DNA from: Nocardioidaceae bacterium
GTDB taxonomy: Bacteria; Actinomycetota; Actinomycetes; Propionibacteriales; Nocardioidaceae
Reading direction: 5' to 3'
NCBI GenBank assembly: GCA_017744365.1
Contig: JAGIBL010000008.1
Span: 1-64,000, forward strand
DNA length: 64,000 bases
Shown here: positions 4,301-18,658 of the stretch, one piece after another
Numbering within the stretch: the stretch's first letter is position 1
Layout: each line of letters begins with the position of its first letter
Notes under the pieces: generated by a model
Told to the model about the DNA's origin: nothing
What the model saw: the letters and a program-made list of their open reading frames with translations, nothing else
The model's database searches: none
Position numbers and translations under genes: made by a program

Positions 4301-5877
4301 GTGCCGCTGACCCGGTCCCAGACGATGCGCGGGCGCAGCTCGGCGAACTCGTCGCTCGGGTAGCGCCCGGCGAGCAGGTCGAGCGTCGCGTCGAAGGCAC
4401 TGCGCGGCAGCTGCGCGAACGGGGCCGTGCGCCGGACCAGGTCGAAGAGCGCGTCGGTCTCCCAGGAGTCCATCGCGGTCGCGGCGACGACCTGCTGGGC
4501 CAGCACGTCCAGCGGGTTGGTCGGCACCCGCAGCGCCTCGATGCCGCCGGTGCGCATCCGCTCGACGGCGACCGCCGTCGGGACCAGGTCCCCGCGGTGC
4601 TTGGGGAAGAGCACACCCCGGGACACCTCGCCCACCTGGTGACCGGCCCGGCCGACCCGCTGCAGTGCGCTGGCCACGCTCGGCGGCGACTCGATCTGGA
4701 TGACCAGGTCCACCGCGCCCATGTCGATGCCGAGCTCCAGACTGCTCGTCGCCACCACGCAGGGGAGCCGGCCGCGCTTGAGGTCGTCCTCGATGACGGC
4801 GCGCTGCTCTTTGGAGACCGAGCCATGATGCGCACGAGCCAGCACCCCAGGAGCTCCCGACGACTGCCCGGACTGCGCCATGACCTGTGCCGGCACCAGC
4901 CGAGACGGCTCAGCTGAACGCCCGGAGCTCTGCGGAGGGTGTTCCTCTGAGCCGTCTCGGCGTCCCGCGCTTTCGGCCCGCTCCGCAGCGATCTCGTTCA
5001 AACGCGCCGTCAGCCGCTCCGCGAGCCGCCGCGAGTTGGCGAAGACGATCGTCGAGGTGTGCTGCTCGATGAGGTCGACGACGCGCTCCTCGACGTGCGG
5101 CCAGATGCTCCCCGACCGGGCGTCGTCCGAGTCCTCGTCGAGTGCCGTCATGTCCTCGACCGGCACCACCACGCGCAGGTCCCACTGCTTCTCCGAGGAC
5201 GGCGCGACCACCTCGACGGGAGCCGAGCCGCCCAGGAAGCGGGCCACCTCCTCGATCGGGCGCACCGTCGCGGACAGCCCGACCCGCTGGGCCGGCCGGT
5301 CCAGCAGTGCATCGAGCCGCTCGAGGGAGAGGGCCAGGTGCGCGCCCCGCTTGCTGCCGGCGACGGCGTGCACCTCGTCGACGATCACGGTCTCGACGCC
5401 GCGCAGCGACTCGCGCGCCTGCGAGGTGAGCATGAGGAAGAGCGACTCGGGCGTGGTGATGAGGATGTCCGGCGGGGTCGTCTGGAGCTTGCGCCGCTCG
5501 GACGCCGGAGTGTCCCCGGACCGGACGCCCACGCTGATCTCCGGGACCTCGACGCCCAGACGCTCGGCCGTGTGCCGGATGCCGGCCAGGGGAGCGCGCA
5601 GGTTGCGCTCGACGTCGACGGCCAGCGCCTTCAGCGGGGAGACGTACAGGACGCGACACCGATGCTGCTTCGACGCAGGGCGCGCGGTCGTCGCGAGCCG
5701 GTCGATCGAGGCGAGGAAGGCGGCCAGCGTCTTGCCCGAGCCGGTGGGTGCGACCACCAGCGCGTGCCGGCCGGCGCCGATGGCCTCCCAGGCCCCGGTC
5801 TGTGCGTTCGTGGGCGCGGCGAAGGCGGCCTGGAACCAGACCCGGGTCGCCTCGCTGAACTGCTGCACGGGTCTCAT
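1306..5877 (-). CDS. lhr: Lhr-type large ATP-dependent helicase
   Basis: A 1523-residue superfamily-2 DNA helicase, close to the size of mycobacterial Lhr (about 1510). Visible motifs: Walker A APTGSGKT at residues 43-50, DEVH box at 167-170, SAT motif at 202-204, and the GIDMGAVD and QRVGRAGH motifs V/VI at about 385-415. The long C-terminal half holds winged-helix-like and Lhr-specific domains. A low-complexity Ser/Gly/Glu insert sits at about 305-350. Lhr is a DNA-damage-inducible 3'-5' translocase in mycobacteria. Start: ATG at 5877, but the GTG at 5868 (fourth codon) lies exactly 7 bases after a GAGGAT -10-like element that belongs to a PafBC-type motif. A leaderless start at 5868 is therefore a real alternative. 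It leads the operon lhr-nei-membrane protein. Confidence 0.95.
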   Translation of the reverse strand: MRPVQQFSEATRVWFQAAFAAPTNAQTGAWEAIGAGRHALVVAPTGSGKTLAAFLASIDRLATTARPASKQHRCRVLYVSPLKALAVDVERNLRAPLAGIRHTAERLGVEVPEISVGVRSGDTPASERRKLQTTPPDILITTPESLFLMLTSQARESLRGVETVIVDEVHAVAGSKRGAHLALSLERLDALLDRPAQRVGLSATVRPIEEVARFLGGSAPVEVVAPSSEKQWDLRVVVPVEDMTALDEDSDDARSGSIWPHVEERVVDLIEQHTSTIVFANSRRLAERLTARLNEIAAERAESAGRRDGSEEHPPQSSGRSAEPSRLVPAQVMAQSGQSSGAPGVLARAHHGSVSKEQRAVIEDDLKRGRLPCVVATSSLELGIDMGAVDLVIQIESPPSVASALQRVGRAGHQVGEVSRGVLFPKHRGDLVPTAVAVERMRTGGIEALRVPTNPLDVLAQQVVAATAMDSWETDALFDLVRRTAPFAQLPRSAFDATLDLLAGRYPSDEFAELRPRIVWDRVSGTLTARPGAQRLAVTSGGTIPDRGMFGVFLVGADARSGRGRVGELDEEMVYESRVGDLFTLGTTTWRIEDITHDRVLVSPAPGQPGRLPFWTGDTLGRPAELGEAIGAFTRDLVSLPAEGATARAREAGLDEWAAANLVTLVSEQRESTNAVPHDRQLVVERFRDELGDWRIVVHSPYGTPVHAPWALAINARLRERYGVDAQAMAADDGIVLRIPETDQDPPGAELIAFEPDEIEDLVTTEVGGSALFASRFRECAARALLLPRRDPGRRSPLWQQRQRSAQLLEVASRYPSFPIVLETVREVLQDVYDVPALVALQKRIAERRVKLVDVTTQRASPFAQSLLFGYVAAFMYEGDSPIAERRAAALTLDQGLLAELLGRAELRELLDADVLAEVEAELQRLAPERHARDPEGLVDLLRLVGPLSTTELAARSSVPVADAIALLARARRVVEVRVAGEERWAVVEDVARLRDGLGVPVPPGTPETFTEPVADPLGDLVGRYARTHGPFTAAEVATRLGLGVAVVQQTLVRLAAQGRVLDGEFRPAGAGTEWCDAEVLRMLRRRSLARLRHEVEPVSPATLGRFLPAWQHVRGDTTRGLRGVDGVLAVVEQLAGCAVPASALESLVLPSRVADYQPAYLDELTAAGEVLWAGHGAISGSDGWVSLHLADTAPLTLPSSEDPPSAEALAVLEALAGGGAYFFRQLSGQVGSTDDQALAALVWELVWAGRLGNDTLAPLRGLTRSGGSHRTRRPPPRARVSSGLRRPGLPSRSGPATALMTSMAGRWFALPDIEADATRRAHAAAEGLLDRHGVVTRGAVMAERVPGGFASSYRVLAKFEETGRCRRGYFVEGLGAAQFGTAGAVDRLRSYQRTTPPEKLEAVTLAATDPANPYGAALPWPVLDGGHRPGRKAGALVVLVEGELALYVERGGRTLLTFGEDPDVTAAAIGGLGDAVRRGTLGKLTVEKADGANVLGADSETIRAALETAGFIATSKGLRLRG

Positions 5878-5898
5878 CCTCGCTCACCGCACCGACAG
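5876..5898 (-). promoter_or_regulatory. Candidate PafBC-dependent (RecA-NDp-type) promoter of lhr
   Basis: Read on the minus strand: CTGTCGGTG (5898-5890), an 8-base spacer, then GAGGAT (5881-5876). This matches the mycobacterial PafBC/RecA-NDp layout tTGTCRGTG-N8-TAnnnT except for the first T and the first -10 base. Transcription would begin near the GTG at 5868. Confidence 0.5.
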
Positions 5899-5908
5899 TC
5901 CGACGTAC

Positions 5909-6004
5909 GGCTTTCACCTGAGACGCCTCGGCGGACTCCCGGCTTTCACCTGAGACGCCTCGGCGGGGGCCGGGCTTTCAGATGAGACGCCTCGGCGGGT
6001 TGAG
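5909..6004. repeat. Three tandem 32-bp direct repeats upstream of pstC
   Basis: Units begin at 5909, 5941 and 5973, exactly 32 bases apart. The first 26 bases (GGCTTTCACC then TGAGACGCCTCGGCGG) are identical in units 1 and 2. Unit 3 has AGA for CCT in the middle. The last 6 bases of each unit vary. TGAGAC recurs at 6001, 6008 and, with GCC, at 6052. The array lies between the divergent lhr and pstC, which suggests a multi-site operator. The TTTCACCTG part resembles the Streptomyces PHO-box heptamer, but the 32-base period is not the 11-base PHO period. Confidence 0.85.
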
Positions 6005-6039
6005 ACATGAGACACGGAAGACAAAGTCGAGTAATCAGA

Positions 6040-6045
6040 TATAGT
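6040..6045 (+). promoter_or_regulatory. Candidate -10 element of the pst operon
   Basis: TATAGT lies in the only AT-rich stretch (6017-6052) between the repeat array and pstC. There is no good -35 hexamer 17 bases upstream (GAAGAC), as expected for an activator-dependent promoter; the 32-bp repeats end just upstream. Confidence 0.35.
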
Positions 6046-6129
6046 TAATTGTGAGACGCCAGTTCGGGCTGGTCCTCCCCGTCACACCCTCGGCCGTGCT
6101 GGGCCGCCGACCTCGAAGGACCACCCCGT

Positions 6130-7134
6130 ATGACCGCCGTACTCGACGACGACCTGCCCCGCCGGCTGACGGCGCGCGAGTCCCTGCAGGACCGTCTCTT
6201 CGTCCACGGGGTCCGCGGGGTCGGCCTGCTGGTGCTGGTGATCGTCTCCGCGATCGGCCTCTTCCTCGGGCTGCAGTCGCGCCCGACGCTGCAGCACTAC
6301 GGGCTCTCCTTCTTCACCGAGTACCGCTGGCTGCCCAGCCAGGACATCGTCGGCATCGCCGCGGTCCTGCTCGGCACCGTCGAGGTCGCCCTGGTCGCGC
6401 TGCTGATCTCGTTCCCGCTCTCGGTGCTCTCCGCGCTGTTCATCTCCGACTGGGCGCCGCCGCGACTGCGTCCGCTGCTGATCCGGATCCTCGACCTGAT
6501 GGCCGCGGTCCCCGCGATCGTCTTCGGGCTCTGGGTGCTGGTCGTGGTCCAGCCGCACGCCACCGAGGTCGCGCACTGGGTCAGCAAGTACTTCGGCTGG
6601 ATCCCGATCTTCAAGGTGCACACGGACGTCGACTACCCGATCTGGAACCAGGCGCCCGGCTACCCGGCGTACCAGGGCTCGGCGTTCATCGCGGCGATCG
6701 CGGTCGCGATGATGATGTTCCCGATGGCCACCTCGGTGATGCGCGAGGTGTTCTCCAGCGCGCCGGCGGGGGAGAAGGAGGCCGCGCTCGCCCTCGGCGC
6801 CACCCGCTGGGCGATGGTCCGGACCGTGGTGCTCCCGTTCGGCCGCAGCGGCATCATCGGCGGCACCATGCTGGCGCTGGGCCGCGCGCTGGGCGAGACC
6901 ATCTCGGTGCTGCTCATCATCAGCCAGGCCTTCAAGATCAAGGTCAACATCCTCGAGTCCGGCACCTCGACCATCTCGGCGATGATCGCGACCGGCTACC
7001 GCGAGGCCACCCCCGCGCAGCTCTCCGCCCTGCTCACCGCCGGCTTCGTGCTCTTCCTGATGACGCTGGCCGTCAACACCGTCGCGGCGATCATCGTCGC
7101 CCGCGGCAGGTCCGGGGCGGAGACCGAGCTGTGA
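6130..7134 (+). CDS. pstC: Phosphate ABC transporter permease PstC
   Basis: A 334-residue inner-membrane permease, the first of the two channel subunits. It shows an N-terminal membrane helix at about 28-48, further helices through to residue 325, and the ATPase-contact EAA loop EKEAALALGATRW at about 216-228. Start ATG at 6130 is preceded by GAAGGA at 6115-6120. It heads a run of overlapping genes: the stop overlaps the pstA GTG by 4 bases. The PstC-type LGETISVL segment after the EAA loop supports phosphate-type over sulfate-type permeases. Confidence 0.93.
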   Translation: MTAVLDDDLPRRLTARESLQDRLFVHGVRGVGLLVLVIVSAIGLFLGLQSRPTLQHYGLSFFTEYRWLPSQDIVGIAAVLLGTVEVALVALLISFPLSVLSALFISDWAPPRLRPLLIRILDLMAAVPAIVFGLWVLVVVQPHATEVAHWVSKYFGWIPIFKVHTDVDYPIWNQAPGYPAYQGSAFIAAIAVAMMMFPMATSVMREVFSSAPAGEKEAALALGATRWAMVRTVVLPFGRSGIIGGTMLALGRALGETISVLLIISQAFKIKVNILESGTSTISAMIATGYREATPAQLSALLTAGFVLFLMTLAVNTVAAIIVARGRSGAETEL

Positions 7135-8207
7135 CCGCGACCGTCCTCGAACGCACCGAGCAGAAGACCGAGACCGTACGGCGGACAGCCCCCCGCACCC
7201 GCGAGGACGTCCTCACCCTCGTCGGCGCGGGAGTCGGCTCCCTGGCCACCACCTGGCTGGTCTACACCAAGCTGCTCCCGCTGCACGGCACCATCGGCTT
7301 CGTCGTGCTCGGCTGCGCGGTCTTCGTCGCCTACTACGCCGGGATGACCGCGCTGACCCGGCCCTGGCCCGTCGTCGCGGACCGGATCGTGACCGCCCTC
7401 GTGGTGGCCGCGCCCACCCTGGTCGGCCTGGCGCTGGCGAGCACGATCATCTCCACCGCGATCAAGGGCGCCCCGGCGCTGTTCCACGGCAACTTCTTCA
7501 CCGACGACATGGCCGGGGTCCGGCCCGGTGACGAGTTCTCCATGGGCGGCGCCCTGCACGCGATGGCCGGCACCCTGATCGAGGTCGCCATCGCGGTGTC
7601 GATCGCGATGCCGCTGGGCGTGATCACCGCGATCTACATGTCCGAGGTCGGTGGTCGCCTCGCCCGCCTGGTGCGCGTGGTGATCGAGGCGATGACCGCG
7701 CTGCCCTCGATCGTCGCGGGCCTGTTCATCTACGCGGTGCTGATCGTGAACCTGCACTTCCCCAGCAGCGGCTTCGCGGCCGCGCTGGCGCTGGCGGTGA
7801 TGGGCCTGCCGATCATGGCCCGGGCCAGCGACGTGGTGCTGCGCGTGGTCCCCGGCGGACTGCGGGAGGCGTCGTACGCGCTGGGGGCGGGGAAGCTGCA
7901 GACGGTCTGGCACGTGGTGCTGCCCACCGCCCGCCCCGGCTTGGCGACCGCGCTGATCCTGGGCATCGCCCGGATGGTCGGGGAGACCTCGCCGCTGATC
8001 CTCACCTCCGGCGCGTCCACGTTCATGAACGCCGACCCGTTCCACAACCCGATGAACTCGCTGCCGCTGTTCATCTACAGCGCCGTCGGGTCCGGCGACC
8101 CGCGGTTCGCGCAGCGCGGGTTCGCCGCCGCGACCGTGCTGCTCACCCTCGTCCTCGCGCTGTTCCTGCTGGCGCGGCTCGTCGTCCGAACCAAGAAGGC
8201 ACCGTGA
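7131..8207 (+). CDS. pstA: Phosphate ABC transporter permease PstA
   Basis: A 358-residue second channel subunit. The GTG start at 7131 lies in the GTGA overlap with pstC. The N-terminal 50 residues are hydrophilic (ERTEQKTETVRR), then six or more membrane helices follow. The EAA-type loop is GGLREASYALGAGKLQTVW at about 245-263, followed by the PstA-typical MVGETSPLILT. It pairs with PstC to form the transmembrane pore and is coupled to the next gene by another GTGA at 8204. Confidence 0.92.
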   Translation: MTATVLERTEQKTETVRRTAPRTREDVLTLVGAGVGSLATTWLVYTKLLPLHGTIGFVVLGCAVFVAYYAGMTALTRPWPVVADRIVTALVVAAPTLVGLALASTIISTAIKGAPALFHGNFFTDDMAGVRPGDEFSMGGALHAMAGTLIEVAIAVSIAMPLGVITAIYMSEVGGRLARLVRVVIEAMTALPSIVAGLFIYAVLIVNLHFPSSGFAAALALAVMGLPIMARASDVVLRVVPGGLREASYALGAGKLQTVWHVVLPTARPGLATALILGIARMVGETSPLILTSGASTFMNADPFHNPMNSLPLFIYSAVGSGDPRFAQRGFAAATVLLTLVLALFLLARLVVRTKKAP

Positions 8208-8218
8208 GAGAAGTCCCG

Positions 8219-9823
8219 ATGAAGAAGATCGCGCTCGCCCTCGTGATCGCCAGCGTCGCCCTGATCGCCCCGGCTGCCCAGGGCGCCTCCAGTCACGCGC
8301 TGATCCAGGGCTCCGGCTCCTCCTGGGCCGCCAACGCGATCAACCAGTGGGTCGCCGACGTGGCCAACCAGGGCCTGCGCGTGGTCTTCACCGCCAACGG
8401 CGCGGCCCAGGGCCGCAAGGACTACGCCAACCGGTCCAACGACTTCGCGGTCTCCGACATCCCGTTCCGCGGCAAGGACCCGACGACCGGCCAGGCGGAC
8501 ACGCCGCTCGGACGCTCGTTCGCGTACCTGCCGATCGCCGCCGGCGGCACCGCGTTCCCCTACCACGTCGAGGTCGGCGGCAAGCTGGTCCGCAACGTCC
8601 GGCTCTCGGGGGAGACGATCGCGAAGATCTTCACCAGCAAGATCACCAACTGGAACGACCCGCAGATCACCAAGGACAACAACGGCCACGCGCTGCCCTC
8701 GATCCCGATCATCCCGGTGGTGCACTCCGAGGGCGCCGGTGTCACCAACCAGTTCACGACCTACCTGGCCAAGCAGTTCCCGGCGATCTGGGCTTCCTGC
8801 AACGGCGGCCTGGCCAAGGAAACCGAGTACTTCCCGCTCAACTGCGGGCGCTCCAGCGGCAACCAGAAGGCGCAGGCGGGCTCGGACGGCGTCATGAACT
8901 TCATCAAGAGCGCCGGCGCCAACGGCTCGATCGGGATGGAGGAGTACTCCTACCCGCTGCTGGCGAACTTCCCGGCCGCGAAGGTGCTCAACAAGGCCGG
9001 CTACTACACGCTGCCGACCCAGTACAACGTCGCCGTCGCGCTCACCAAGGCGATCATCAACAACGACCCGAGCTCGCCGACGTACCTGACCCAGAAGCTC
9101 GACTACGTCTACACGAACGCCGACCGGCGCACCTACCCGCTGTCGTCGTACGTCTACGCGATCATCCCGACTGCCGCCGACGACAGCCGGATGACGACGG
9201 CGAAGCGGCAGACGATCGCGGACTTCCTCTACTACTCGATCTGCCAGGGGCAGGCCGAGATCGGCCCGGTCGGCTACTCCTCGCTGCCGGTCAACCTGGT
9301 GCAGGCCGGCTTCCAGCAGATCGCGAAGCTGAAGACCGCCGACGCCGGGGTCGACCTGACCAAGCGGGACGTGCGCACCTGCCACAACCCGACGTTCATC
9401 CCCGGCAAGCCGAACCAGAACTACCTGGCCAAGATCGCGCCCCAGCCGCCGGCCTGCGACAAGCTGGGCGCCGGTCCGTGCGCCGCCGGGGCCGGTGCGT
9501 TCAACGCCAACCCGGGCACGGCCAAGCCGGGGGCCACGAACCCCGGGACCGGGCCGGCCGCCCCGGGCGCGACGCCCACGGCCGGGAGCCCGGGGACCGG
9601 AAAGGCGCCCACGACGGGTGACCCGACGCTGGGTGACGGCACCGTGGACGGCAGCGATGCGACCGCGGCCGGGAACGTGGTCGCGACGACGCTGCCGGCC
9701 GACGCCGGGTCCGGTCCGCCGGCCGCGCTGACCGTGCTCGTCATCGCCCTGCTGGCGCTGGCGCTGCTGGTGCCCGCCGGCGTGGGTCGCTGGCTGGTGG
9801 GTCGTCGCGGAGGCACCCCGTGA
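8219..9823 (+). CDS. pstS: Membrane-anchored phosphate-binding protein PstS
   Basis: Binds the substrate outside the membrane for PstCA. From ATG 8219 (preceded by GAGAGAAG) the 534-residue protein has a signal peptide MKKIALALVIASVALIAPAAQG, the ligand-loop sequence IQGSGSSWA and a PstS/PBP2 domain to about residue 400. Unusually there is no lipobox. A Pro/Gly/Thr-rich linker (about 425-490) is followed by a hydrophobic helix (PAALTVLVIALLALALLVPAG) and a basic tail (GRWLVGRR), so it is C-terminally anchored. LPADAG just before the helix vaguely resembles a sorting signal. The alternative GTG at 8204 overlaps the pstA stop but would add residues before the signal peptide. Confidence 0.85.
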   Translation: MKKIALALVIASVALIAPAAQGASSHALIQGSGSSWAANAINQWVADVANQGLRVVFTANGAAQGRKDYANRSNDFAVSDIPFRGKDPTTGQADTPLGRSFAYLPIAAGGTAFPYHVEVGGKLVRNVRLSGETIAKIFTSKITNWNDPQITKDNNGHALPSIPIIPVVHSEGAGVTNQFTTYLAKQFPAIWASCNGGLAKETEYFPLNCGRSSGNQKAQAGSDGVMNFIKSAGANGSIGMEEYSYPLLANFPAAKVLNKAGYYTLPTQYNVAVALTKAIINNDPSSPTYLTQKLDYVYTNADRRTYPLSSYVYAIIPTAADDSRMTTAKRQTIADFLYYSICQGQAEIGPVGYSSLPVNLVQAGFQQIAKLKTADAGVDLTKRDVRTCHNPTFIPGKPNQNYLAKIAPQPPACDKLGAGPCAAGAGAFNANPGTAKPGATNPGTGPAAPGATPTAGSPGTGKAPTTGDPTLGDGTVDGSDATAAGNVVATTLPADAGSGPPAALTVLVIALLALALLVPAGVGRWLVGRRGGTP

Positions 9824-12483
9824 GCGCCGCACGACTGAGCGCCGTACGTCGGGGAGCGGCCGTCCTGGTCGCGACGCTGCTGGCCGCGAGCGTCCTCACC
9901 CCGGTGGCGAGCGCCGCCGCGGCCGCGGTCACCAAGGAGAGGACGGTCACCCGGACCGCGATCGCCGCCGACGGCAGCAGCACGCAGCTGGACCGCCGTA
10001 CGGTCAAGCTCAGCGTCTCGGCGACCAGCAACCTGCGCGGCCGCCAGGAGATCACCGTGTCCTGGTCCGGCGCGCACCCGACCGGCGGCCTGGTCGGTGA
10101 CGTGAACGCCGCCGAAGGGGCGAACCAGGAGTACCCGTTCGTGCTGCTGCAGTGCCGCGGCGTCGACTCCACCAGCGTGCCGCCGGCCAAGCGCATCCGG
10201 CCGGAGACGTGCTGGACCCAGACCTGGGCGGAGCGGTTCCGCAACGACAACACCACGGCCTACCCGGCCTGGCGCTCCGACGCGGACGCGACCGCGGCCG
10301 AGCGGAGCGCCCGGGTCAACGAGGCGAGCCCGCGGCCGAAGCTCTGCGGCCGGCCGGCGCTCGCGGAGCGCTGGGTGCCGCTGGTCGGCGCGAACGGCAC
10401 CACCTACGCCGGCGGCACGGTCGGGTGCGCCGGCATGGCACCGGAGTCGGCCAACGTCGGCGGCTCGGGCATCCCCAGCAACACGACCTACGGGATCACC
10501 GGCAAGGACGGCCGCGGCAGCAGCCGGTTCAGCGTCTGGACCGCCGAGGAGAACGCCACCCTCGGCTGCTCCTCGAGCGTGCCCTGCTCGCTGGTCGCGA
10601 TCCCGGTCATGGGCATCGACTGCGACGGGTTCGGCACCAGGCTTCCGGCCGCGCAGCGACCCGACGCCGAGGCCGGCGCACAGGCCGACGCCGACTGCCG
10701 TGCCGACGACGTGTTCGCGCCCGGCCAGCTCGCGCTGCCCGGCACCCGGCCCAACCAGGCCACCGCCGGCGCGCTGTGGTGGGCGCCGTCGAACTGGAGG
10801 AACCGGATCAGCGTGCCGCTGGGCTTCGCGGTGGCGCCGAGCGTCTGCGCGATCGTCTCCAAGGCCAAGCCGCTGCAGGTCTACGGCTCCTCGCTGATGA
10901 ACGAGGCCACCGGTCAGTGGCAGCCGAAGTTCTGCACCGACAAGGCGCTGGACCCGTTCGTGCACGTGCAGACCGCGGACACCTCGGCGCGCACGCTGCT
11001 GCAGGCGGGCACGATCAGCGCGGCGTTCTCCAGCCGAGCACCCGATGGCGGCTTCACCCGCCCGGTGGTGCAGGCGCCGGTGGCGGTCACCGGCTTCGCG
11101 ATCGGGTACGTCGTCGACGACGCGAACGGGGAGCGGTACACCCAGCTGCGGATGAACCCGCGGCTGCTCGCCAAGCTGCTCACCGAGTCCTACCCGGGCA
11201 ACGCGCTGGTGAAGAACTCCTACCCGGCGCTGAGCGGCAACCCGGTGAACATCACCCTGGACCCGGAGTTCCAGGCCCTCAACCCGGGCCTGCCCGAGAA
11301 GACCAACACCGAGGCGGCCGCGGCCCTGCTCACCCTCTCCTCGGAGGCGGACCTGGTCTACGCGCTGACCAGCTACCTGGACCAGGACCCGGCCGCGCGT
11401 GCGTGGCTGGACGGCGCCGCCGACCCGTGGGGGATGGTGGTCAACCCGAAGTACAAGGGCCTGGACCTGCCGGTCTACTCCTGGCCGCTGCTCGACGACA
11501 CCCTGGCCCCGAAGTCCTACATCGACGGCTGGACCAACCCCTGCTACAGCAACAGCCCGAGCCCGTACCTGGCGCTGATCGCGAACCCGACCGCGTTCGT
11601 GAGCACCATCGTGCTCAACATGCAGTACGCGATCTCGAACGTGAACATCGAGTGCCCGAACGGGGACCGCAACGACCCGTCCACGCTGCGGCTGCAGACC
11701 CAGGGCCGCCAGCAGCCCGGGTTCCGGTTCGTGCTCGGAGTGGTGCCGCTGAGCGCGGTCAGCCGGTACAGCCTGACCGCCGCGCGGCTGCAGGCCGGAC
11801 CGGGCTCCTCGGCGCACCCCGAGACGGCGTCCTTCGTCGCCGGGGACGACACCGGGCTCGCGGCCGGGGCGAGGCTGTTCCACGCCGACGCCGCGAACAA
11901 GACCTGGACCGTCGACTACCCGGCGCTGGCCTCGGCCCGCGGCAAGGACGCCTACCCGGGCACGATCCCGGTCTTCGCCGACGTGCCGACCAGCGGGCTG
12001 GCGAAGGACGACGCCGCCAAGGCCGCCGAGCTGCTCCGGTTCGCCGCCACCGACGGGCAGCGCCGCGGCATCGCGAACGGGCAGCTGCCGCCCGGCTACC
12101 TGCCGATCACCCGGGCGAACGCACTGGGCGCGCTGGCCGGCTACACGCTGCGCGCGGCCAAGGCGGTCGCCGCGCAGCAGGGCTTCGTGCCCTTCCTGGA
12201 CCCGGCGCAGGACCCCAAGCCGGCGGTGGTCGCGAAGCCACCGGCCGGCGCCGGGCCGGGCGCGGTGCCGGGATCCGTCCCGGGAGCGGTCCCGGCGGCC
12301 GTCCCCGGGGCTCCGGCCGGGGCGCCGGTCACGCTGGCCGGGGTGCCGGTGACCGACCAGCTGCGCACCCTGGGCGCGCACTCCGCGCTCGGGTACGGCG
12401 TGCCGGTGATCGGGTTCGCCGGCCTGGTGATCGGGCTGGCGGGCGCGGTGCTGCGCTGGGCTCCCCGGAAGGTGCGGCGATGA
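9820..12483 (+). CDS. Large surface protein with a PstS-like substrate-binding region
   Basis: An 887-residue exported protein, coupled to pstS by a GTGA overlap. Signal peptide at about 1-33 (VLVATLLAASVLTPVASA). Residues about 35-335 form a Cys-containing domain I do not recognise. About 340-470 is PBP-like: SVCAIVSK, YGSSLM, LLQAGTISAAFSSR, then VAVTGFAIGYVVDD and LLAKLLTESYPG, the pattern seen in PstS-type proteins. A Pro/Gly/Val-rich linker (about 800-840) leads to a C-terminal membrane helix (about 855-878) and the basic tail RWAPRKVRR. It probably stands on the outer face of the membrane and captures or presents ligand to the PstCA channel. The ligand cannot be read from the sequence. 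Confidence 0.7.
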   Translation: MSAARLSAVRRGAAVLVATLLAASVLTPVASAAAAAVTKERTVTRTAIAADGSSTQLDRRTVKLSVSATSNLRGRQEITVSWSGAHPTGGLVGDVNAAEGANQEYPFVLLQCRGVDSTSVPPAKRIRPETCWTQTWAERFRNDNTTAYPAWRSDADATAAERSARVNEASPRPKLCGRPALAERWVPLVGANGTTYAGGTVGCAGMAPESANVGGSGIPSNTTYGITGKDGRGSSRFSVWTAEENATLGCSSSVPCSLVAIPVMGIDCDGFGTRLPAAQRPDAEAGAQADADCRADDVFAPGQLALPGTRPNQATAGALWWAPSNWRNRISVPLGFAVAPSVCAIVSKAKPLQVYGSSLMNEATGQWQPKFCTDKALDPFVHVQTADTSARTLLQAGTISAAFSSRAPDGGFTRPVVQAPVAVTGFAIGYVVDDANGERYTQLRMNPRLLAKLLTESYPGNALVKNSYPALSGNPVNITLDPEFQALNPGLPEKTNTEAAAALLTLSSEADLVYALTSYLDQDPAARAWLDGAADPWGMVVNPKYKGLDLPVYSWPLLDDTLAPKSYIDGWTNPCYSNSPSPYLALIANPTAFVSTIVLNMQYAISNVNIECPNGDRNDPSTLRLQTQGRQQPGFRFVLGVVPLSAVSRYSLTAARLQAGPGSSAHPETASFVAGDDTGLAAGARLFHADAANKTWTVDYPALASARGKDAYPGTIPVFADVPTSGLAKDDAAKAAELLRFAATDGQRRGIANGQLPPGYLPITRANALGALAGYTLRAAKAVAAQQGFVPFLDPAQDPKPAVVAKPPAGAGPGAVPGSVPGAVPAAVPGAPAGAPVTLAGVPVTDQLRTLGAHSALGYGVPVIGFAGLVIGLAGAVLRWAPRKVRR

Positions 12484-13394
12484 GCACGCTCGAGCAGCCG
12501 CGCACCGTCGTACGACGTGAGCCCGTGCTCGGCGCGCCACCGCCGGCGCGCACCTGGACCGAGGCCCAGCTCGGGATCGCGCGCGCCTTCCTGGTGGTCG
12601 GCGTGGTGACCGTCTGGGTGCTCGTCTACGTGCTGGTGCTCAGCGCCTTCGAGGCGAACCACGCCCAGCACCGGCTCTACGGCGAGCTGCGCACCCAGCT
12701 GGCGCTCGGCACCGTGCCGACCGGCGCGCCGATCGCCGGCGGTGCGCCGGTCGCGCTGCTGGACGCGCCGCGCGCGGGCATCGACGACCTGGTCGTCGTC
12801 GAGGGCACCAGCGCCACCGAGCTGCAGCAGGGGCCGGGCCACCTGCGCGGGACCGTGCTGCCCGGGCAGCAGGGGGTGAGCGTGCTGCTCGGCCGCGCGC
12901 TCTCCTACGGCGGCCCGTTCGGCGGGCTCGGGAAGCTGCGCACCGGCGACCGGATCACGGTGACCACCTCGCAGGGGCGGTTCAGCTATGCCGTGACCGG
13001 CGCGCGGCGGGGAGGCGACCCGGCTCCCGCGGCGCCGGAGGCCGGCTCGGGACGACTGAGCCTGGTGACGGCGCTGAGCGGCAACCGGCTCGGCCGGCTG
13101 GCCCCGACCGATCCCGTGTACGTCGACGCGACCCTGGTCGGCAAGGCCGCGGCGCCCGGACCGGTCTCCACGAAGGTCGACGACGAGCAGCCGCTGGACA
13201 GCCGGGTGACCACCGGCACCCTGGCCGAGCTCGTGCTCGCCCTGCAGCTGCTGGTCGGCACACTGCTCGGCGCGGCCTGGGCCCGGTCGCGGTGGACGCC
13301 GCTGGCAGCCTGGCTGAGCGCGGCACCGGTGGTGCTGGCGGCGCTCTGGCTGGTCTCGCTGCTGACCTTCCGACTGCTCCCGAACCTGGCCTGA
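12480..13394 (+). CDS. Degenerate sortase-fold membrane protein (pseudo-sortase)
   Basis: A 304-residue protein with an N-terminal membrane helix (about 33-55) and two C-terminal helices (about 248-300). Its middle aligns with actinobacterial class E/F sortases: VVEGTSATELQQGPGHLRGT, LPGQQG, YGGPFGGLGKLRTGDRITV. The catalytic residues are gone: the AGHRTT-type histidine position reads LGRALS (Arg139) and the TTC cysteine position reads LVTA (Ala198). The arginine eight residues on (Arg206) is kept. It therefore should not act as a transpeptidase; a structural or binding role for the neighbouring surface proteins is likely. ATG at 12480 overlaps the previous stop (ATGA). Confidence 0.7.
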   Translation: MSTLEQPRTVVRREPVLGAPPPARTWTEAQLGIARAFLVVGVVTVWVLVYVLVLSAFEANHAQHRLYGELRTQLALGTVPTGAPIAGGAPVALLDAPRAGIDDLVVVEGTSATELQQGPGHLRGTVLPGQQGVSVLLGRALSYGGPFGGLGKLRTGDRITVTTSQGRFSYAVTGARRGGDPAPAAPEAGSGRLSLVTALSGNRLGRLAPTDPVYVDATLVGKAAAPGPVSTKVDDEQPLDSRVTTGTLAELVLALQLLVGTLLGAAWARSRWTPLAAWLSAAPVVLAALWLVSLLTFRLLPNLA

Positions 13395-13437
13395 CGCCAC
13401 CGAGGGACCCGTGATGTAGACCACCCGTCGACCTATC

Positions 13438-13466
13438 TTGCTAATGTCGATCAACTTTATTAAATT
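13438..13466 (+). promoter_or_regulatory. Internal promoter in the pst locus
   Basis: TTGCTA (13438-13443), a 17-base spacer, then TAAATT (13461-13466), in a conspicuously AT-rich 35-base island. It precedes the third substrate-binding-type gene, whose ribosome-binding site GAGAGAGG ends 7 bases before the ATG at 13495. Confidence 0.6.
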
Positions 13467-13494
13467 AAACGCAATCCCGAGAGAGGTAGAACCC

Positions 13495-14664
13495 ATGTCG
13501 AAGAGAAGGACCGCCGCCGGCACCGCCCTGGTCGGTGTGCTGGTCGCCGGAGCCCTGGCCGCGAGCCAGCACAGCGCGCTGGCCGATGGGGCGCCCCAGC
13601 CCAAGGACGTCGTCGGCGTCGGGTCGGACATCATGCAGAACTCGGTGAACTTCCTCGCCGACGGGCACGGTGCCGACCTGGGCTACAACGCGGCGGGCAA
13701 CAAGTACCGGATCTTCAGCTTCGACGCGACCGGCGACGCCAACGGCCGCAAGCCGTTCACCGACCCGGCCCTCGGCACCCCGACCCAGCTCAACGGCACG
13801 GTCACCCTGCGGGCCGGCACCTCGCCGGTGCAGCGCCCGAACGGCGGCAGCGCCGGCCTGACCGCGCTCATCAACGACGGCAAGAACGGCGTCTCGGCGA
13901 ACAAGATCAGCTTCGCCCGCAGCCCCAACCTGCCGACCGCGGCGCAGCAGACCGCGGCCCAGCAGAACCTGGGCTCGGCGCTGCACTCGGTGCAGATCGC
14001 CACCGACATCGACTACATCGCCACCGCGACGACCACGAACGCACCGGCGAACCTGACCGGTGACGACCTGGTCAAGATCTACACCGGGCAGTACACGACC
14101 TGGGGTCAGATCCCCGGTTACGCGGGCCCGGCACCCTCGGCGACGATCAAGCCGCTGATCCCGCAGAACGGCGCCGGCATGCGCACCGTGTTCCTCAACG
14201 CGCTCAAGCAGTTCAACGGGGGCGCCGCGGTGAACCCGACCGCCGCGACCGAGGTCCAGCAGAACGACCCGACCTCGATCACCTCGCTGCCGGACGCGGA
14301 GAAGCCGAACGCGATCGTGCCGTTCCCCAAGGGCCGGTTCACGCTGCTCGACGGCGGCTACTTCCTCAACCCGAACGCGCCGTACTCGGTGGCCGCGCCG
14401 GCCGACCCGCTCACCACCACGGGCATCCAGCTCCACACCGGCGCCGGCGCGTGGAGCACCACCTTCGCGTACTACGTGATCTTCCGGCAGGCCGACTTCG
14501 ACAGCAACGAGGTCTGGCAGCCGGGCGGCACCCTCAACTGGGTCCAGACGCTCTTCTACAACCCGGGGGCCACCCCGTGGGTGAAGTCGGCTCCGGGCCA
14601 GGCGCTGCTGCAGTCGGCCGGGGTCACCCCGGCGTACGTCGACCGCGGCAACGACGTCCAGTGA
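13495..14664 (+). CDS. Exported PBP-like (PstS-related) protein
   Basis: A 389-residue secreted protein. The ATG at 13495 is chosen for its GAGAGAGG site and the signal peptide that follows (RRTAAGTALVGVLVAGALAA, cleavage near residue 30). The mature part starts KDVVGVGSDIMQNSVNFL, the ligand-loop pattern of actinobacterial phosphate-type binding proteins. It contains further family-like segments (NKISFARSPN, DLVKIYTGQYTTWGQIPGY, PLIPQNGAGMRTVFL). It has no lipobox and no C-terminal membrane helix, so it is probably free or held by partners. It is the third binding-type protein in the locus and overlaps the next gene by GTGA. Confidence 0.75.
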   Translation: MSKRRTAAGTALVGVLVAGALAASQHSALADGAPQPKDVVGVGSDIMQNSVNFLADGHGADLGYNAAGNKYRIFSFDATGDANGRKPFTDPALGTPTQLNGTVTLRAGTSPVQRPNGGSAGLTALINDGKNGVSANKISFARSPNLPTAAQQTAAQQNLGSALHSVQIATDIDYIATATTTNAPANLTGDDLVKIYTGQYTTWGQIPGYAGPAPSATIKPLIPQNGAGMRTVFLNALKQFNGGAAVNPTAATEVQQNDPTSITSLPDAEKPNAIVPFPKGRFTLLDGGYFLNPNAPYSVAAPADPLTTTGIQLHTGAGAWSTTFAYYVIFRQADFDSNEVWQPGGTLNWVQTLFYNPGATPWVKSAPGQALLQSAGVTPAYVDRGNDVQ

Positions 14665-15302
14665 CGGGCACGACGGCGGCGGCCTCACGAGTGGGCCGCG
14701 TGGCTGCACTCGCGACGGTCGCCGTCGTCGTGGCCGCCGCGATCGTCTGGCTGACCACCCGGGGCAGTGCCGCCGCGGCGCCGTACGAGGATCCCGCCTC
14801 GATCGGCACCCTGACGCTCTGCGACGCCGCCGGGAAGCCGGTGATCTCGGGGTCGACCTCCGCGGCGCCGTTCGTGGCCCGGGTGGTCAGCTCGACGGCG
14901 GCGGCCGGCCCGTACGCCGTGGCCGGCCGCACCGCCACCCTGTTCGCGCACCAGCCGCGGGAGGGCGCCGACCCGGCCGAGTGGAGCGGGCAGCAGCTGA
15001 CCGCGGCCGCCCGGTACACCGACCCGGCGCACCCGATGGCGCAGGCCACCGTGAAGGACGTCGCCCTGGCGGACTTCCTGGCCGCGTTCCCGCCGCGCTG
15101 GCACGGGTCGGTGCAGCTCCGGCTGGCCCTGGCCGCTCCGGACGCACCGCCCTCGGGGCACTACGCCTCGCTCGACCTGAAGGTGGACGGCCGGCACTGG
15201 CAGGTCGTCGGCACACCCGGCACCGCCAGCTGCACCACCGGCGACGCCACCTCCACCGAGACGCTGCTGGACCCGTCGGTCACCAGCGCCACCCGACCCT
15301 GA
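14661..15302 (+). CDS. Exported protein, shared family with the next gene
   Basis: A 213-residue protein of unknown function starting at the GTG in a GTGA overlap. A hydrophobic segment at about 10-32 (VAALATVAVVVAAAIVWLT) is a signal anchor or signal peptide. The mature part (DPASIGTLTLCDAAGKPVISGS, VARVVSS, WSGQQLTAAARY, GRHWQVVGTP) matches, segment by segment, the N-terminal half of the following gene, so the two are paralogues. Three Cys residues are absent from the paralogue. I cannot name the domain. Confidence 0.65.
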   Translation: MTGTTAAASRVGRVAALATVAVVVAAAIVWLTTRGSAAAAPYEDPASIGTLTLCDAAGKPVISGSTSAAPFVARVVSSTAAAGPYAVAGRTATLFAHQPREGADPAEWSGQQLTAAARYTDPAHPMAQATVKDVALADFLAAFPPRWHGSVQLRLALAAPDAPPSGHYASLDLKVDGRHWQVVGTPGTASCTTGDATSTETLLDPSVTSATRP

Positions 15303-15337
15303 CTTCCTGATCTCGAAAGACCCCGAGAGGAACACCC

Positions 15338-16519
15338 GTGAACGTCCGACCGAGAACCCTCCGAGCCGCGATCGTCGCGCTGCTGCTCGCGACCACGGCC
15401 TCCACCGGCCTGGTGGTCGCCACGAGCGCGACCGCGGCCGACCCGGTGCCGCCGCCGTGGCAGTCCGGCCCCGGCGTCGACCCGAACCGGGTCGGCACCC
15501 TGTCCTTCTACGACGCGGCCGGCAACCAGATCTTCGGAGGCTCGCTGACCAGCGCACCGCTGGCGTCGTACGTGGTCTCCTCGGCGCCGGTGCGCGCCGG
15601 CGACGACCACGCCACCCTCTACGCCTACACCCCGGTGCCGGGCCAGGTTCCCGGGACCTGGTCCGGCACCCAGCTGACCGCGGCCAACGCCTACCCCGTG
15701 GCCGGTGCGCCCGCGGCCGTCAGCGCCACCCTGCCGGTGGTCAAGGGCACCTCGGGTGACACCAAGGTCACCGACCACGCCGCCGCGTTCCCCAACAACT
15801 CGGCGACGGCCGGCTACCAGGGGGTCTACGAGCTGCGGCTGCGCACCAGCAAGGCCGACGCGAACCCGGTCTCCACCGACTCCTACGCGGTGGCCGACAT
15901 CCTCGTCTCCGGCGACACCTGGCAGGTCGTGTACGGCAGCAAGACCACCTCGGCGACGACGGCGACCGTGCCCGCGAAGGCGATCTACGGCCGGGCGTTC
16001 TCGGTACCGGTGACGGTGACCGCGACCGGGACCACTCCCACCGGCACGGCCTCCCTGTACGACGGCGCGAAGCTGATCGGGTCCGCGGCGCTGGTCTCCG
16101 GCAAGGCGACCTTCACGGTCGCGGGCACCAGGCTGCTGCCCGGCACGCACGCGCTCAAGGTCGGCTACGGCGGCTCGGCGTCGGTCTCGGCCAGCACCTC
16201 CGCGGTGCGCGCGGTGGCCGTGTCGAAGGCGCCCAGCACGGCCTCGAACCGGCTGAGCAGGTCGCGGCTGAGCCACCTCAAGCGGGCCAGGCTCTCCATC
16301 ACCGTCACCGCGGTGGGCGTGTACCCGACCGGTCCGGTCGTGGTCTACGACGGCACTCGGGTGATCGCCCGGACCACGCTCACCGCCGCCCAGCGCGGGC
16401 ACACCTCGGTGCTGCTGCCGGCGCGCAAGAAGGGCCGGCACGTGATCCACGTCGTGTACGGCGGCTCCGGGCTGGTGCTCCGCTCGGTGGCCCGCAACGT
16501 CGTCCTGATCTCGACCTGA
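15338..16519 (+). CDS. Exported protein with unnamed domain plus bacterial Ig-like repeats
   Basis: A 393-residue secreted protein from GTG 15338 (GAGAGG 8 bases upstream). Signal peptide at about 1-33. Residues 45-205 share the domain of the preceding gene (RVGTLSFYDAAG, APLASYVVSS, WSGTQLTAANAY, TWQVVYGS). Residues about 207-290 and 305-390 form two Ig-like beta-sandwich repeats (TGTTPTGTASLYDGAKLIG and VGVYPTGPVVVYDGTRVIA; each ends in HALKVGYGGS or HVIHVVYGGS). Such repeats usually act as spacers on cell-surface proteins. It has no membrane anchor of its own. Confidence 0.75.
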   Translation: MNVRPRTLRAAIVALLLATTASTGLVVATSATAADPVPPPWQSGPGVDPNRVGTLSFYDAAGNQIFGGSLTSAPLASYVVSSAPVRAGDDHATLYAYTPVPGQVPGTWSGTQLTAANAYPVAGAPAAVSATLPVVKGTSGDTKVTDHAAAFPNNSATAGYQGVYELRLRTSKADANPVSTDSYAVADILVSGDTWQVVYGSKTTSATTATVPAKAIYGRAFSVPVTVTATGTTPTGTASLYDGAKLIGSAALVSGKATFTVAGTRLLPGTHALKVGYGGSASVSASTSAVRAVAVSKAPSTASNRLSRSRLSHLKRARLSITVTAVGVYPTGPVVVYDGTRVIARTTLTAAQRGHTSVLLPARKKGRHVIHVVYGGSGLVLRSVARNVVLIST

Positions 16520-16537
16520 TCTCGACCTGAGCTCGAC
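16505..16537 (+). repeat. Three 11-bp direct repeats at the gene junction before pstB
   Basis: CTGATCTCGAC at 16505 and 16516, CTGAGCTCGAC at 16527, directly abutting. The second copy contains the stop codon of the Ig-repeat gene. The array ends just before AAGGAGG, the pstB ribosome-binding site. Confidence 0.8.
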
Positions 16538-16549
16538 CAAGGAGGAGTG

Positions 16550-17389
16550 ATGAGCGCAGCAGTCCTGGAGGCGCCCGAGACCGCGATCCTGCCGCGGGTC
16601 CCCGCCGGCGCCGGACCGGCCGCCCTGGAGGCGGAGGCGATCTCGGCGTGGTTCAGCCGCCGCAAGGTGCTGGACCGGGTGTCGCTGACTTCTGAGCCCG
16701 GCCAGGTCACCGCGCTGATCGGGCCGTCGGGGTGTGGCAAGTCCACGTTCCTGCGGATCCTGAACCGGATGCACGAGCTGGTCCCCGGGGCCGCGCTCGC
16801 CGGCTCGGTGCGGCTCGACGGCGTCGACGTGTACGACGCCGACCGCCGGCTGACCGAGGCGCGGCGGCAGATCGGGATGGTGTTCCAGAAGCCGAACCCG
16901 TTCCCGGCGATGTCGATCCAGGACAACGTGCTGGCCGGGCTGAAGATCACCGGGGCCCGGATCTCCCGGTCCGAGCGGGAGGCCCTCGTCGAGGAGAGCC
17001 TCGTGCGAGCCGGCCTGTGGGCGGAGGTGCGGGACCGGCTCAAGCAGCCCGGTTCCGCCCTCTCCGGTGGGCAGCAGCAGCGGCTCTGCATCGCCCGGTC
17101 GCTCGCGGTGCGGCCGCGGGTGCTGCTGATGGACGAGCCGTGCTCGGCGCTGGACCCGACCTCGACCCGGGTGGTCGAGGAGACGATCGCGGAGATCTCC
17201 CGGGACGTCACGGTCGTGATCGTCACGCACAACATGCAGCAGGCCGCGCGGGTCTCCGACCAGTGCGCGTTCTTCCTGGCCGAGAACGGTGCGCCGGGCG
17301 TGGTCGTCGAGCACGGCCCGACCGAGGCGATGTTCTCCGACCCGCAGGACCCGCGCACGTCGGACTACGTGCACGGACGGTTCGGCTGA
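16550..17389 (+). CDS. pstB: Phosphate ABC transporter ATP-binding protein PstB
   Basis: A 279-residue cytoplasmic ATPase that powers PstCA. Motifs: Walker A GPSGCGKST at 58-66, Q-loop VFQKPNPFP, signature LSGGQQQR, Walker B VLLMDEPCSALD, and H-loop VIVTHNMQQA. Start: ATG 16550 with a strong AAGGAGG; a GTG at 16547 is too close to it. It closes the locus, about 8 kb after pstA, whereas pstB normally follows pstA directly. No phoU follows, and no PhoU-like gene is in the window. Confidence 0.94.
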   Translation: MSAAVLEAPETAILPRVPAGAGPAALEAEAISAWFSRRKVLDRVSLTSEPGQVTALIGPSGCGKSTFLRILNRMHELVPGAALAGSVRLDGVDVYDADRRLTEARRQIGMVFQKPNPFPAMSIQDNVLAGLKITGARISRSEREALVEESLVRAGLWAEVRDRLKQPGSALSGGQQQRLCIARSLAVRPRVLLMDEPCSALDPTSTRVVEETIAEISRDVTVVIVTHNMQQAARVSDQCAFFLAENGAPGVVVEHGPTEAMFSDPQDPRTSDYVHGRFG

Positions 17390-17450
17390 GCCGTCCGGCG
17401 AGACCCCGGTCCGGGCGGGATCCCAGCTCCTGCCCGGGCCGGTTCGTCCT

Positions 17451-17490
17451 CGCGACCGGCGCCTGCTCTGGTCAAGCGGCGCCGGTCGCG
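17451..17490. terminator. Bidirectional terminator between pstB and the convergent gene
   Basis: Perfect 13-bp stem CGCGACCGGCGCC / GGCGCCGGTCGCG with a 14-base loop. It stands between the convergent ends at 17389 and 17495. No U-tract, as common in actinobacteria. Confidence 0.75.
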
Positions 17491-17494
17491 GGGT

Positions 17495-18658
17495 TCACTC
17501 CACCTGGGTCCAGGTGCGCCCGCCGTCGCTCGAGCGGTGCAGCCGGCCCACGCTGTCCTCGCCGAAGGCGACCGCGTAGGCGAGGTCCTCCGCTGAGCCG
17601 GCCGACGTCACCGCTCCTCCGGGCAGCCCGCTGACCCGGACCGTGCCCCCGTCGGTGACCAGCGTCGAGGAGCGCGGTCCGTTGAGCAGCACCCGGTCCT
17701 CACCGAGCGCGAAGACGCCGGCCCGCGCGGGGATCGTGCCGCCGAACCGCTGCCACGGGCCGAGGCCGGTGCTGCGGAACAGCGCCCCGCCGTTCTTGCC
17801 CGGGCACTCCAGGAACGCACTGCGGCCGGCGGTCAGCAGCAGCGAGTCGGTCAGGCACGGCGCCGCGAGCCGGCTCCAGCGCACGCCGTCGGTGCTGGTC
17901 CGCAGCCGGCGGTTGGACAGACCCTCGTCCTGGACGTCGAGCACGACCGCGTCGCCGATCCGGACCAGGTTGTCGGCCTTGCCGTCGGGCAGCGGCACCT
18001 CGGTCCACTCGTCGGCGTCGACCGGGCTGCGGTACAGGACGGTCTCGGCGTCGATCGAGCGGAACAGGCTCCAGGCGAACCGACCGGCGATCACCACGGA
18101 GTGGCCGGCCTCGGTGCGCCGTCCCGGACCCTGACCCACCTCGCTCCAGGTCCGGCCGCCGTCGTGGGTCGAGAACAGCTTGTTGCCCCAGGCCCACCCG
18201 TCGCTGCCCTGCATCACGAGGTTCGTGACCGGTCCGAAGACCGGTTGCGGCGGGCCGTCGTACGCCTCGGAGCCGAAGTCGTGCACCCGGATCCAGTCGC
18301 CGCCGGGGGCTTGGGCCCACACGGTCGTGCAGGCCACGCAGCCGACGTTGGTGGTCAGCCGGTACACCTCGCCGGGGCTGTTCACGACGAGGTCGATCAC
18401 GCCGCGGGCGGCCTCGGCCGGCAGCGTCGGGGACGGCGTCCGGGTGGCCGGTGGCCGGGGCGGCGCCGCATCGTCCCGCTGGACGCCGACCGCGATCCCC
18501 GCGGCGCCGGCCACCACCAGGGCACCGGCGGCGAGGGCGGCCCCGGCCCGGCGCCGGCGACGCGAGCCCGCGCCTCGTCGTACGGCGTCGAGGAACTGGT
18601 CCTCGTCGGCGTCCATCGGCGTGTTCAGGCCGGCGCGCAGCCGGTCCTCGAGGTTCAT
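17495..18658 (-). CDS. Membrane-anchored BNR/beta-propeller protein cotranscribed with an ECF sigma factor
   Basis: A 387-residue protein. ATG 18658 overlaps the sigma-factor stop codon by one base; a GTG at 18661 is the alternative. The N-terminal 35 residues are cytoplasmic and charged, then comes one membrane helix (about 38-58) and a Pro/Thr-rich linker. The exported part has Asp-box/BNR signatures (STHDGGRTWSEV and SSDGGRTWTQVE) typical of sialidase-type beta-propellers. Its position right after the sigma gene is the usual place for an anti-sigma factor. It lacks a ZAS-type zinc motif, so control of the sigma factor by its short N-terminus is only an inference. Confidence 0.75.
   Translation of the reverse strand: MNLEDRLRAGLNTPMDADEDQFLDAVRRGAGSRRRRRAGAALAAGALVVAGAAGIAVGVQRDDAAPPRPPATRTPSPTLPAEAARGVIDLVVNSPGEVYRLTTNVGCVACTTVWAQAPGGDWIRVHDFGSEAYDGPPQPVFGPVTNLVMQGSDGWAWGNKLFSTHDGGRTWSEVGQGPGRRTEAGHSVVIAGRFAWSLFRSIDAETVLYRSPVDADEWTEVPLPDGKADNLVRIGDAVVLDVQDEGLSNRRLRTSTDGVRWSRLAAPCLTDSLLLTAGRSAFLECPGKNGGALFRSTGLGPWQRFGGTIPARAGVFALGEDRVLLNGPRSSTLVTDGGTVRVSGLPGGAVTSAGSAEDLAYAVAFGEDSVGRLHRSSDGGRTWTQVE

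Follow-up and report, generated by a model that had tools for sequence, protein, structure and literature searches.

Judged by sequence comparison, one copy of the Pst-type pump forms, in many soil actinobacteria, a fixed cluster together with a dead sortase and extra binding proteins, some tethered to the membrane and some exported. We describe this cluster from a 64,000-nucleotide stretch of DNA of a Nocardioidaceae bacterium (the window; positions 1 to 64,000 of contig JAGIBL010000008.1), in which nine genes at 6130-17389 lie on one strand (+) in the order pstC-pstA-pstS-'big'-pseudosortase-PBP3-ex1-ex2-pstB. With middling confidence, we propose that it encodes a Pst-derived ATP-binding cassette (ABC) importer joined in a single conserved unit to a capture apparatus of its own. 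It would probably serve phosphate in the larger group of such cassettes and probably another ligand in the lineage of the window. The motor is the known Pst system; the remaining apparatus appears undescribed, and no published description of the cluster was found by title and abstract opening, a search with most subscription journals outside its coverage.

Gene order and recurrence of the cluster

All nine genes of the initial annotation are present in the window, in the order and on the strand given there. The permease genes pstC (6130-7134) and pstA (7131-8207) encode products that score above the NCBIfam equivalog cut-offs (TIGR02138, 229.8 against 196.45 bits; TIGR00974, 219 against 193.45 bits). 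The pstS-like gene (8204-9823; the start may be 8219) encodes a binding protein with a changed phosphate pocket (PBP_like_2, E value 7.2e-32), predicted to have a hydrophobic N terminus, a long linker and a C-terminal membrane segment. It is followed by big (9820-12483), whose 887 residues comprise a Cys-rich N-terminal part, a PstS-fold domain (approximately residues 347-765) and a C-terminal membrane segment, and by the pseudosortase gene (12480-13394), for which Pfam, NCBIfam and alignments indicate a sortase domain flanked by a membrane segment at either terminus. PBP3 (13495-14664) is an exported PstS-superfamily protein without a C-terminal membrane segment. Family alignment places the exported ex1 (14661-15302; the start may be 14700) in the ex family, and ex2 (15338-16519), also exported, combines an all-beta ex-family domain with two immunoglobulin (Ig)-like (Big_3_5) domains, recognised by Pfam and in the AlphaFold2 (AF2) model. 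The two align at 37% over 160 residues (E value 2e-23), which bears out their annotation as exported proteins of one family. The ATPase gene pstB (16550-17389; TIGR00972) closes the cluster. In the PstB sequence, the Walker A and B, signature and His motifs appear intact, and the ABC parts look functional. Pfam and NCBIfam scans fit all the assigned identities except those of big (no match) and ex1 (no significant match).

Most stops and starts had been said to overlap by 4 bases. They do so at four of the eight junctions (pstC-pstA, pstA-pstS, pstS-big and big-pseudosortase, with pstS starting at 8204) but not elsewhere, a 100-base gap before PBP3 included. The count falls to three of eight with the pstS start preferred by the gene caller (8219), and PBP3-ex1 is an additional overlap if ex1 starts at the GTG at 14661. 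The gap itself (13395-13494), AT-rich within a region of ~74% GC, separates the pseudosortase and PBP3 genes and perhaps holds an internal promoter; a consensus promoter scan called none there.

The 887-residue protein was used as a query against two genome sets, and was matched in 5 of 198 genomes sampled across the phylum and in 23 of 148 relatives (the genome of the window being in, and counted in, both). Scanning a species-genome collection with one conserved family pattern gave 377 relatives of this protein, the best 80 of which were retained. These represent 79 loci, by name from 78 actinobacteria (Acidimicrobiia included) and 1 uncultured bacterium. Flanks were complete in 47 of the 79, defined as loci with the big gene called and flanks no shorter than 7 kb and 8 kb, neighbours being accepted within 9 kb. 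Genes for pstC, pstA, pstS and the pseudosortase lie near big in all 47, and pstB does so in 43; among the four misses, one is truncated at a contig end (L095), one is weak (L132) and two lie past the 9-kb limit (L138, L166). The big gene was uncalled in 6 loci. When 14 awkward loci were re-examined by tblastn, pstC, pstA and pstS were found together in 12 and the pseudosortase in 10, and the two without a full pst set (L070, L080) are short contigs. On the 47 of 47 loci and the tblastn re-examination, a chance neighbourhood or an assembly artefact was rejected. A plasmid-borne element was likewise rejected, with no match in 72,556 plasmid records, among which records of very near genomes are possibly absent.

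The tight packing also recurs, with 4-base overlaps at pstC-pstA in 18/48 loci, pstA-pstS in 36/47, pstS-big in 38/46 and big-pseudosortase in 30/45. Single open reading frames unite PstA with PstS in L063, L075 and L078, and PstS with big in L159, and both halves of every fusion are recognised by the respective family models. Together, the constant core and these fused frames suggest that the products form one complex. The expectation that all five inserted families accompany the pst genes elsewhere holds in part: the core recurs across actinobacteria, but ex1 and ex2 are cargo that differs between cassettes, as does PBP3 to a lesser degree, so not all five families are fixed. In Nocardioides sp. 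Root1257 (L094) and URHA0020 (L106), a second cassette begins shortly after an ex-type one.

A canonical-like PstS is also encoded in 18 of 18 cassette genomes examined (of the 23 positive relatives), and the cassette is thus an extra system. The genome of the window (4.76 Mb, 15 contigs) has three Pst-type loci. One is a canonical pstSCAB (C8:563513-567359), close to PHO4 phosphate-transporter and DUF47 family genes; another is a second expanded cassette (C8:759954-774813) with big, pstC, pstA, pstS (its product having a C-terminal membrane segment), the pseudosortase and pstB. Further genes of this second cassette encode two Ig-like-domain proteins, one protein without a Pfam match and one WxL-interacting-like protein, whose DUF916-like (WxL-interacting) match is weak and below the Pfam cut-off. 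The annotated absence of phoU is correct for the cluster, but a PhoU gene lies apart from it, at C8:488 kb.

A dead sortase and additional PstS-fold proteins

The sortase-fold protein was recognised correctly, its Pfam Sortase domain scoring above the cut-off (49.5 against 26.6), and the closest proteins of known structure are sortases (5go5 and 5go6, E value 1.3e-10; also 5uus). In the window protein, the catalytic His is replaced by Arg and the catalytic Cys by Ala. At the position where the enzymes have G-H, all 33 aligned pseudosortases have G-R. Across 93 cassette proteins, a set that excludes one true sortase swept in (L159 gene 3), the His column holds R in 89, K in 2 and H in 2, and the Cys column A in 62, S in 25, G in 5 and V in 1. 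An active sortase is ruled out by this loss of the catalytic Cys (0/93) and His (kept in 2/93), and by sequence the protein is dead family-wide. Of the eight other sortase-domain genes in the same genome, seven keep both His and Cys; the eighth is a match below the family cut-off.

The closest enzymes are class E sortases, which share the sortase domain and the N-terminal membrane segment. The cassette protein differs from them in its replaced His (Arg in 89/93) and Cys (93/93), in an extra C-terminal membrane segment, and in a score below the cut-off of the best NCBIfam sortase model, that of class E (NF033747, 68.1 against 160). A structure of the class E sortase SrtE1 of Streptomyces coelicolor has reportedly been obtained. 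In two Dactylosporangium loci (L117, L125), the pseudosortases retain His and not Cys, and an LPxTG-like pattern is matched close to the C termini of the ex1 and big proteins there.

Despite its lack of Pfam or NCBIfam matches, big is PBP-like as annotated, on the agreement of its AF2 model, Foldseek and HHalign. The model has a predicted local distance difference test score (pLDDT) of 85.8 and a predicted TM-score (pTM) of 0.82, and all 34 Foldseek matches at an E value <=0.001 are named as phosphate-binding or PstS-type proteins (best 1pc3, E value 5.7e-11, TM-score by target length 0.75). HHalign places a PstS domain at residues 347-765 (probability 94.6%), in which a counterpart of the RSDGSGTT phosphate loop is absent. 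Ten Cys residues are invariant in 46 big sequences, and PBP_like_2 is weakly matched in 4 of these 46, the window's not among them. PBP3, the third PBP-like protein, passes the PBP_like_2 cut-off (38.3 against 27 bits). Its residues 112-239 (in the 389-residue form) align to PstS (95.4%) without the loop Arg and Asp.

Anchoring is predicted to differ among these proteins. A hydropathy scan found a C-terminal membrane segment in 100/103 PstS, 102/105 big and 0/97 PBP3 sequences, counts that take some species twice; among distinct PstS proteins the figure is 88/89. The AF2 model of ex2 (pLDDT 89.0) shows an all-beta domain and two Ig-like domains, and its Foldseek matches are generic Ig-like ones only. 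Among 29 cargo proteins of other cassettes (4 of them from the second cassette of the same genome), at an E value <=0.01, Big_3_5 was matched by 16, WxLIP_PGBD by 6 (lowest 3.7e-10) and WxL by 4 (lowest 4.5e-5). A WxL match occurs in 1 of 36 ex-family proteins, and the Pfam scan found no WxL or WxLIP domain in ex1 or ex2 of the window cassette. Both the predicted anchors and the absence of one on PBP3 agree with the annotated wording 'surface-assembled', as does the WxL, WxL-interacting and Ig-like cargo of other cassettes. These matches recall the surface complexes of WxL and WxL-interacting (DUF916) proteins. The window cassette, however, lacks such proteins, and in other cassettes they lie inside a Pst-type ABC cluster.

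Pocket lineages, proposed mechanism and alternatives

The phosphate contacts, which we take to be T10, F11, S38, D56, R135, D137, S139, G140 and T141 in Escherichia coli numbering, were read in 89 distinct cassettes aligned to the canonical PstS from the genome of the window. That protein reads SSSDRDSGT, whereas the window PstS reads SSADHEAGV and does not carry the phosphate-contact set (Ser38->Ala, R135->His, D137->Glu, S139->Ala, T141->Val). The commonest pocket, STSERDSGT (51/89), has Asp56->Glu with the other contacts kept. Positions 135 and 137 covary, R accompanying D in 68/89 and H, Q, D or P accompanying E in 21/89. In a PstS tree (90 rows, quick method) that kept the pocket columns and was rooted on a very long branch, all 27 changed PstS form one clade (Shimodaira-Hasegawa-like approximate likelihood ratio test 100). 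R135 is replaced in 21 of its members and Ser38 by Ala in 5 more, and the 27th (L059) has an incompletely called N terminus. Cargo of the ex1 or ex2 type occurs in 21 of these 27 cassettes, with none recorded for 6. No cassette with an unchanged pocket has it, once the label of the second L094 cassette, one of a tandem pair, had been set by hand to 'no ex cargo'. The PstS of that second cassette has a near-complete pocket (STSERDSGT).

PHO boxes consist of 11-base repeats, according to PMC7866108. Direct repeats of this kind, with 11-base spacing, match a strict pattern in 8 of 97 pstC upstream regions, a set containing the same species more than once (0.135 expected in shuffles). Among 72 distinct cassettes with pstC first in the operon, there are 6 strict and 20 relaxed matches (1.2 expected). 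All 20 relaxed matches fall among the 52 Glu56 cassettes, and there is none in the remaining 20 of the 72, to which the window's cassette belongs. The canonical pstS of the same genome has a strict match. We suggest that there are two lineages: a larger group with a near-complete pocket, probably for phosphate, and that of the window, probably for another acidic ligand. For the window lineage, the changed pocket and the missing PHO-box-like repeat support the proposal that the system handles ligands other than or besides phosphate, while cassettes of the larger group look to be of the phosphate type.

A second phosphate importer of the ordinary kind, supplemented by further binding proteins and with changes that fine-tune its affinity for free phosphate, would account for PstC and PstA scoring as Pst equivalogs, for the many pockets altered at Asp56 alone, and for the PHO-box-like repeats of 20/52 operon-starting Glu56 cassettes. 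We consider it unlikely for the window, whose clade has lost R135 or Ser38 almost throughout and whose operon-starting counterparts without Glu56 have none of the repeats. Further, a canonical Pst is already present in the genome, and the constant pseudosortase and big would be superfluous to a plain importer.

From what the sequences show (the gene unit, its predicted folds and anchors, the inactivated sortase site and the altered pocket), we infer how a ligand would be gathered and passed on by the importer that we favour. Exported or wall-bound PBP3, ex1 and ex2 (elsewhere WxL, WxL-interacting and Ig-like proteins) would collect an anionic ligand within the wall or at its surface and hand it to PstS, hung from the membrane by its linker and helix. 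Big, with a PstS fold but no phosphate loop, and the membrane-spanning pseudosortase would form a docking scaffold beside PstC-PstA, and PstB would power uptake. In the window lineage, the ligand might be an acidic compound of the wall or the soil, for example a phosphorylated one.

The cluster resembles the high-affinity phosphate ABC transporter PstSCAB in its PstC, PstA, PstB and PstS homologues and its PstS-fold binding proteins. It differs in the C-terminal membrane segment of PstS; in joining two further PstS-fold proteins, a pseudosortase and surface cargo in one cluster; in the changed pocket of the window lineage; and in having no phoU adjoining the cassette. PstS-type proteins acting outside the membrane zone have a precedent in the released or appendage-forming PstS of Streptomyces lividans and Pseudomonas aeruginosa, as described in PMC7866108; there, one PstS in its usual role is concerned, whereas the cassette has dedicated extra proteins in a fixed cluster.

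Several points weigh against the importer that we propose. Big and PBP3, without recognisable phosphate residues, may bind no small ligand, and the changed PstS pockets could reflect decay or a structural role. PstS falls far below its equivalog cut-off (TIGR00975, 158.1 against 205, E value 2.8e-46) and PstB slightly below (TIGR00972, 325.9 against 343.2, E value 1.5e-97). Ex cargo and the changed pocket are linked through a single evolutionary event and not by repeated evidence, and an independent joint change of the two found no support (3 independent pairs, sign test p 1). Of the 52 Glu56 cassettes, 32 have no PHO-box-like match; the letter pattern was an assumed one, and its relaxed form is loose. 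Lastly, in the distant, lower-GC genome of L054, the pst genes are divergent from the big/pseudosortase pair and do not form one operon with it.

The main bold rival to an importer is ABC-driven surface assembly, in which ATP hydrolysis by PstB would move the tethered PstS-fold proteins and the pseudosortase, and so assemble, load or release exported surface proteins. It is consistent with the surface-type cargo, including matches to WxL and the WxL-interacting peptidoglycan-binding family in other cassettes, with a cargo that varies inside the cluster around a constant core, and with two of three PstS-fold proteins lacking the phosphate motif. We nevertheless consider it improbable. PstC, PstA and PstS are parts of the importer type, the phosphate pocket is nearly complete in most cassettes, and PBP3 is the sole recognised cargo in many. 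As a tentative and somewhat doubtful possibility, the cluster could represent an undescribed class of actinobacterial envelope machine: a membrane-and-wall complex of Pst-type ABC motor, three PstS-fold proteins and pseudosortase would work on surface proteins that can be swapped (Ig-like, WxL, ex), and in the window lineage its substrate would have ceased to be free phosphate. A sensor or receptor, in which the pump would relay ligand capture by the tethered proteins in the way that PstSCAB signals through PhoU and PhoR, is very improbable: Pst systems are known signalling platforms and an ECF (extracytoplasmic function)-type sigma factor gene lies downstream (18658-19170), but phoU is not beside the cluster, and the sigma factor gene, examined beside the cassette in this window, is on the opposite strand.

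Genes that annotation would assign to a phosphate transporter appear to be part of a larger, fixed cluster in many actinobacteria (377 related loci in the species-genome scan). If the capture apparatus that we favour is real, phosphate-transporter annotation misleads surveys of phosphate cycling. The cluster would also offer a testable case of a sortase fold retained as a scaffold, one of helix-tethered binding proteins, and one of a pump coupled to wall-bound surface proteins.

Upstream region and neighbouring genes

The cluster is preceded by three direct repeats with a TTTCACCTGAGACGCC core and a period of 32 (5912..5991, +), which start at 5912, 5944 and 5976. The last carries 2 mismatches, and shuffled sequences gave a mean of 0.04 matches. 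On their 3' side lies a promoter-like site, AAGACA-16-TATAGT (6018..6045, +), the sole sigma-70-type match in 5870-17600 (1 found, 0.2 expected); TATAGTT is invariant in 5 related upstream regions. A conserved leader (6061..6122, +) then runs from AGTTCGGGCTGGTCC (6061-6075), a 15-base core identical in 5/5 related loci, through the ribosome-binding AAGGACC (6116-6122). In its predicted fold, GTTC of the core pairs with GGAC of the ribosome-binding site, a hint of possible translational control. Two of the 21 pairs of the whole fold, in an inner stem, are changed on both sides among the 5 sequences; the GTTC-GGAC pairs are invariant in them, and covariation is therefore uninformative on these. 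A link to the polyphosphate regulator PolR was dropped, as PMC6754071 concerns pstSCAB and pit genes.

Directly on the 3' side of pstB, the opposite strand (-) carries at 17495-19170 the ECF-type sigma factor gene and then a 387-residue gene without a Pfam match. Further along the window, at 60975-63356 (-), a 793-residue protein is encoded that matches reprolysin-type metallopeptidases weakly and includes a fibronectin type III domain.

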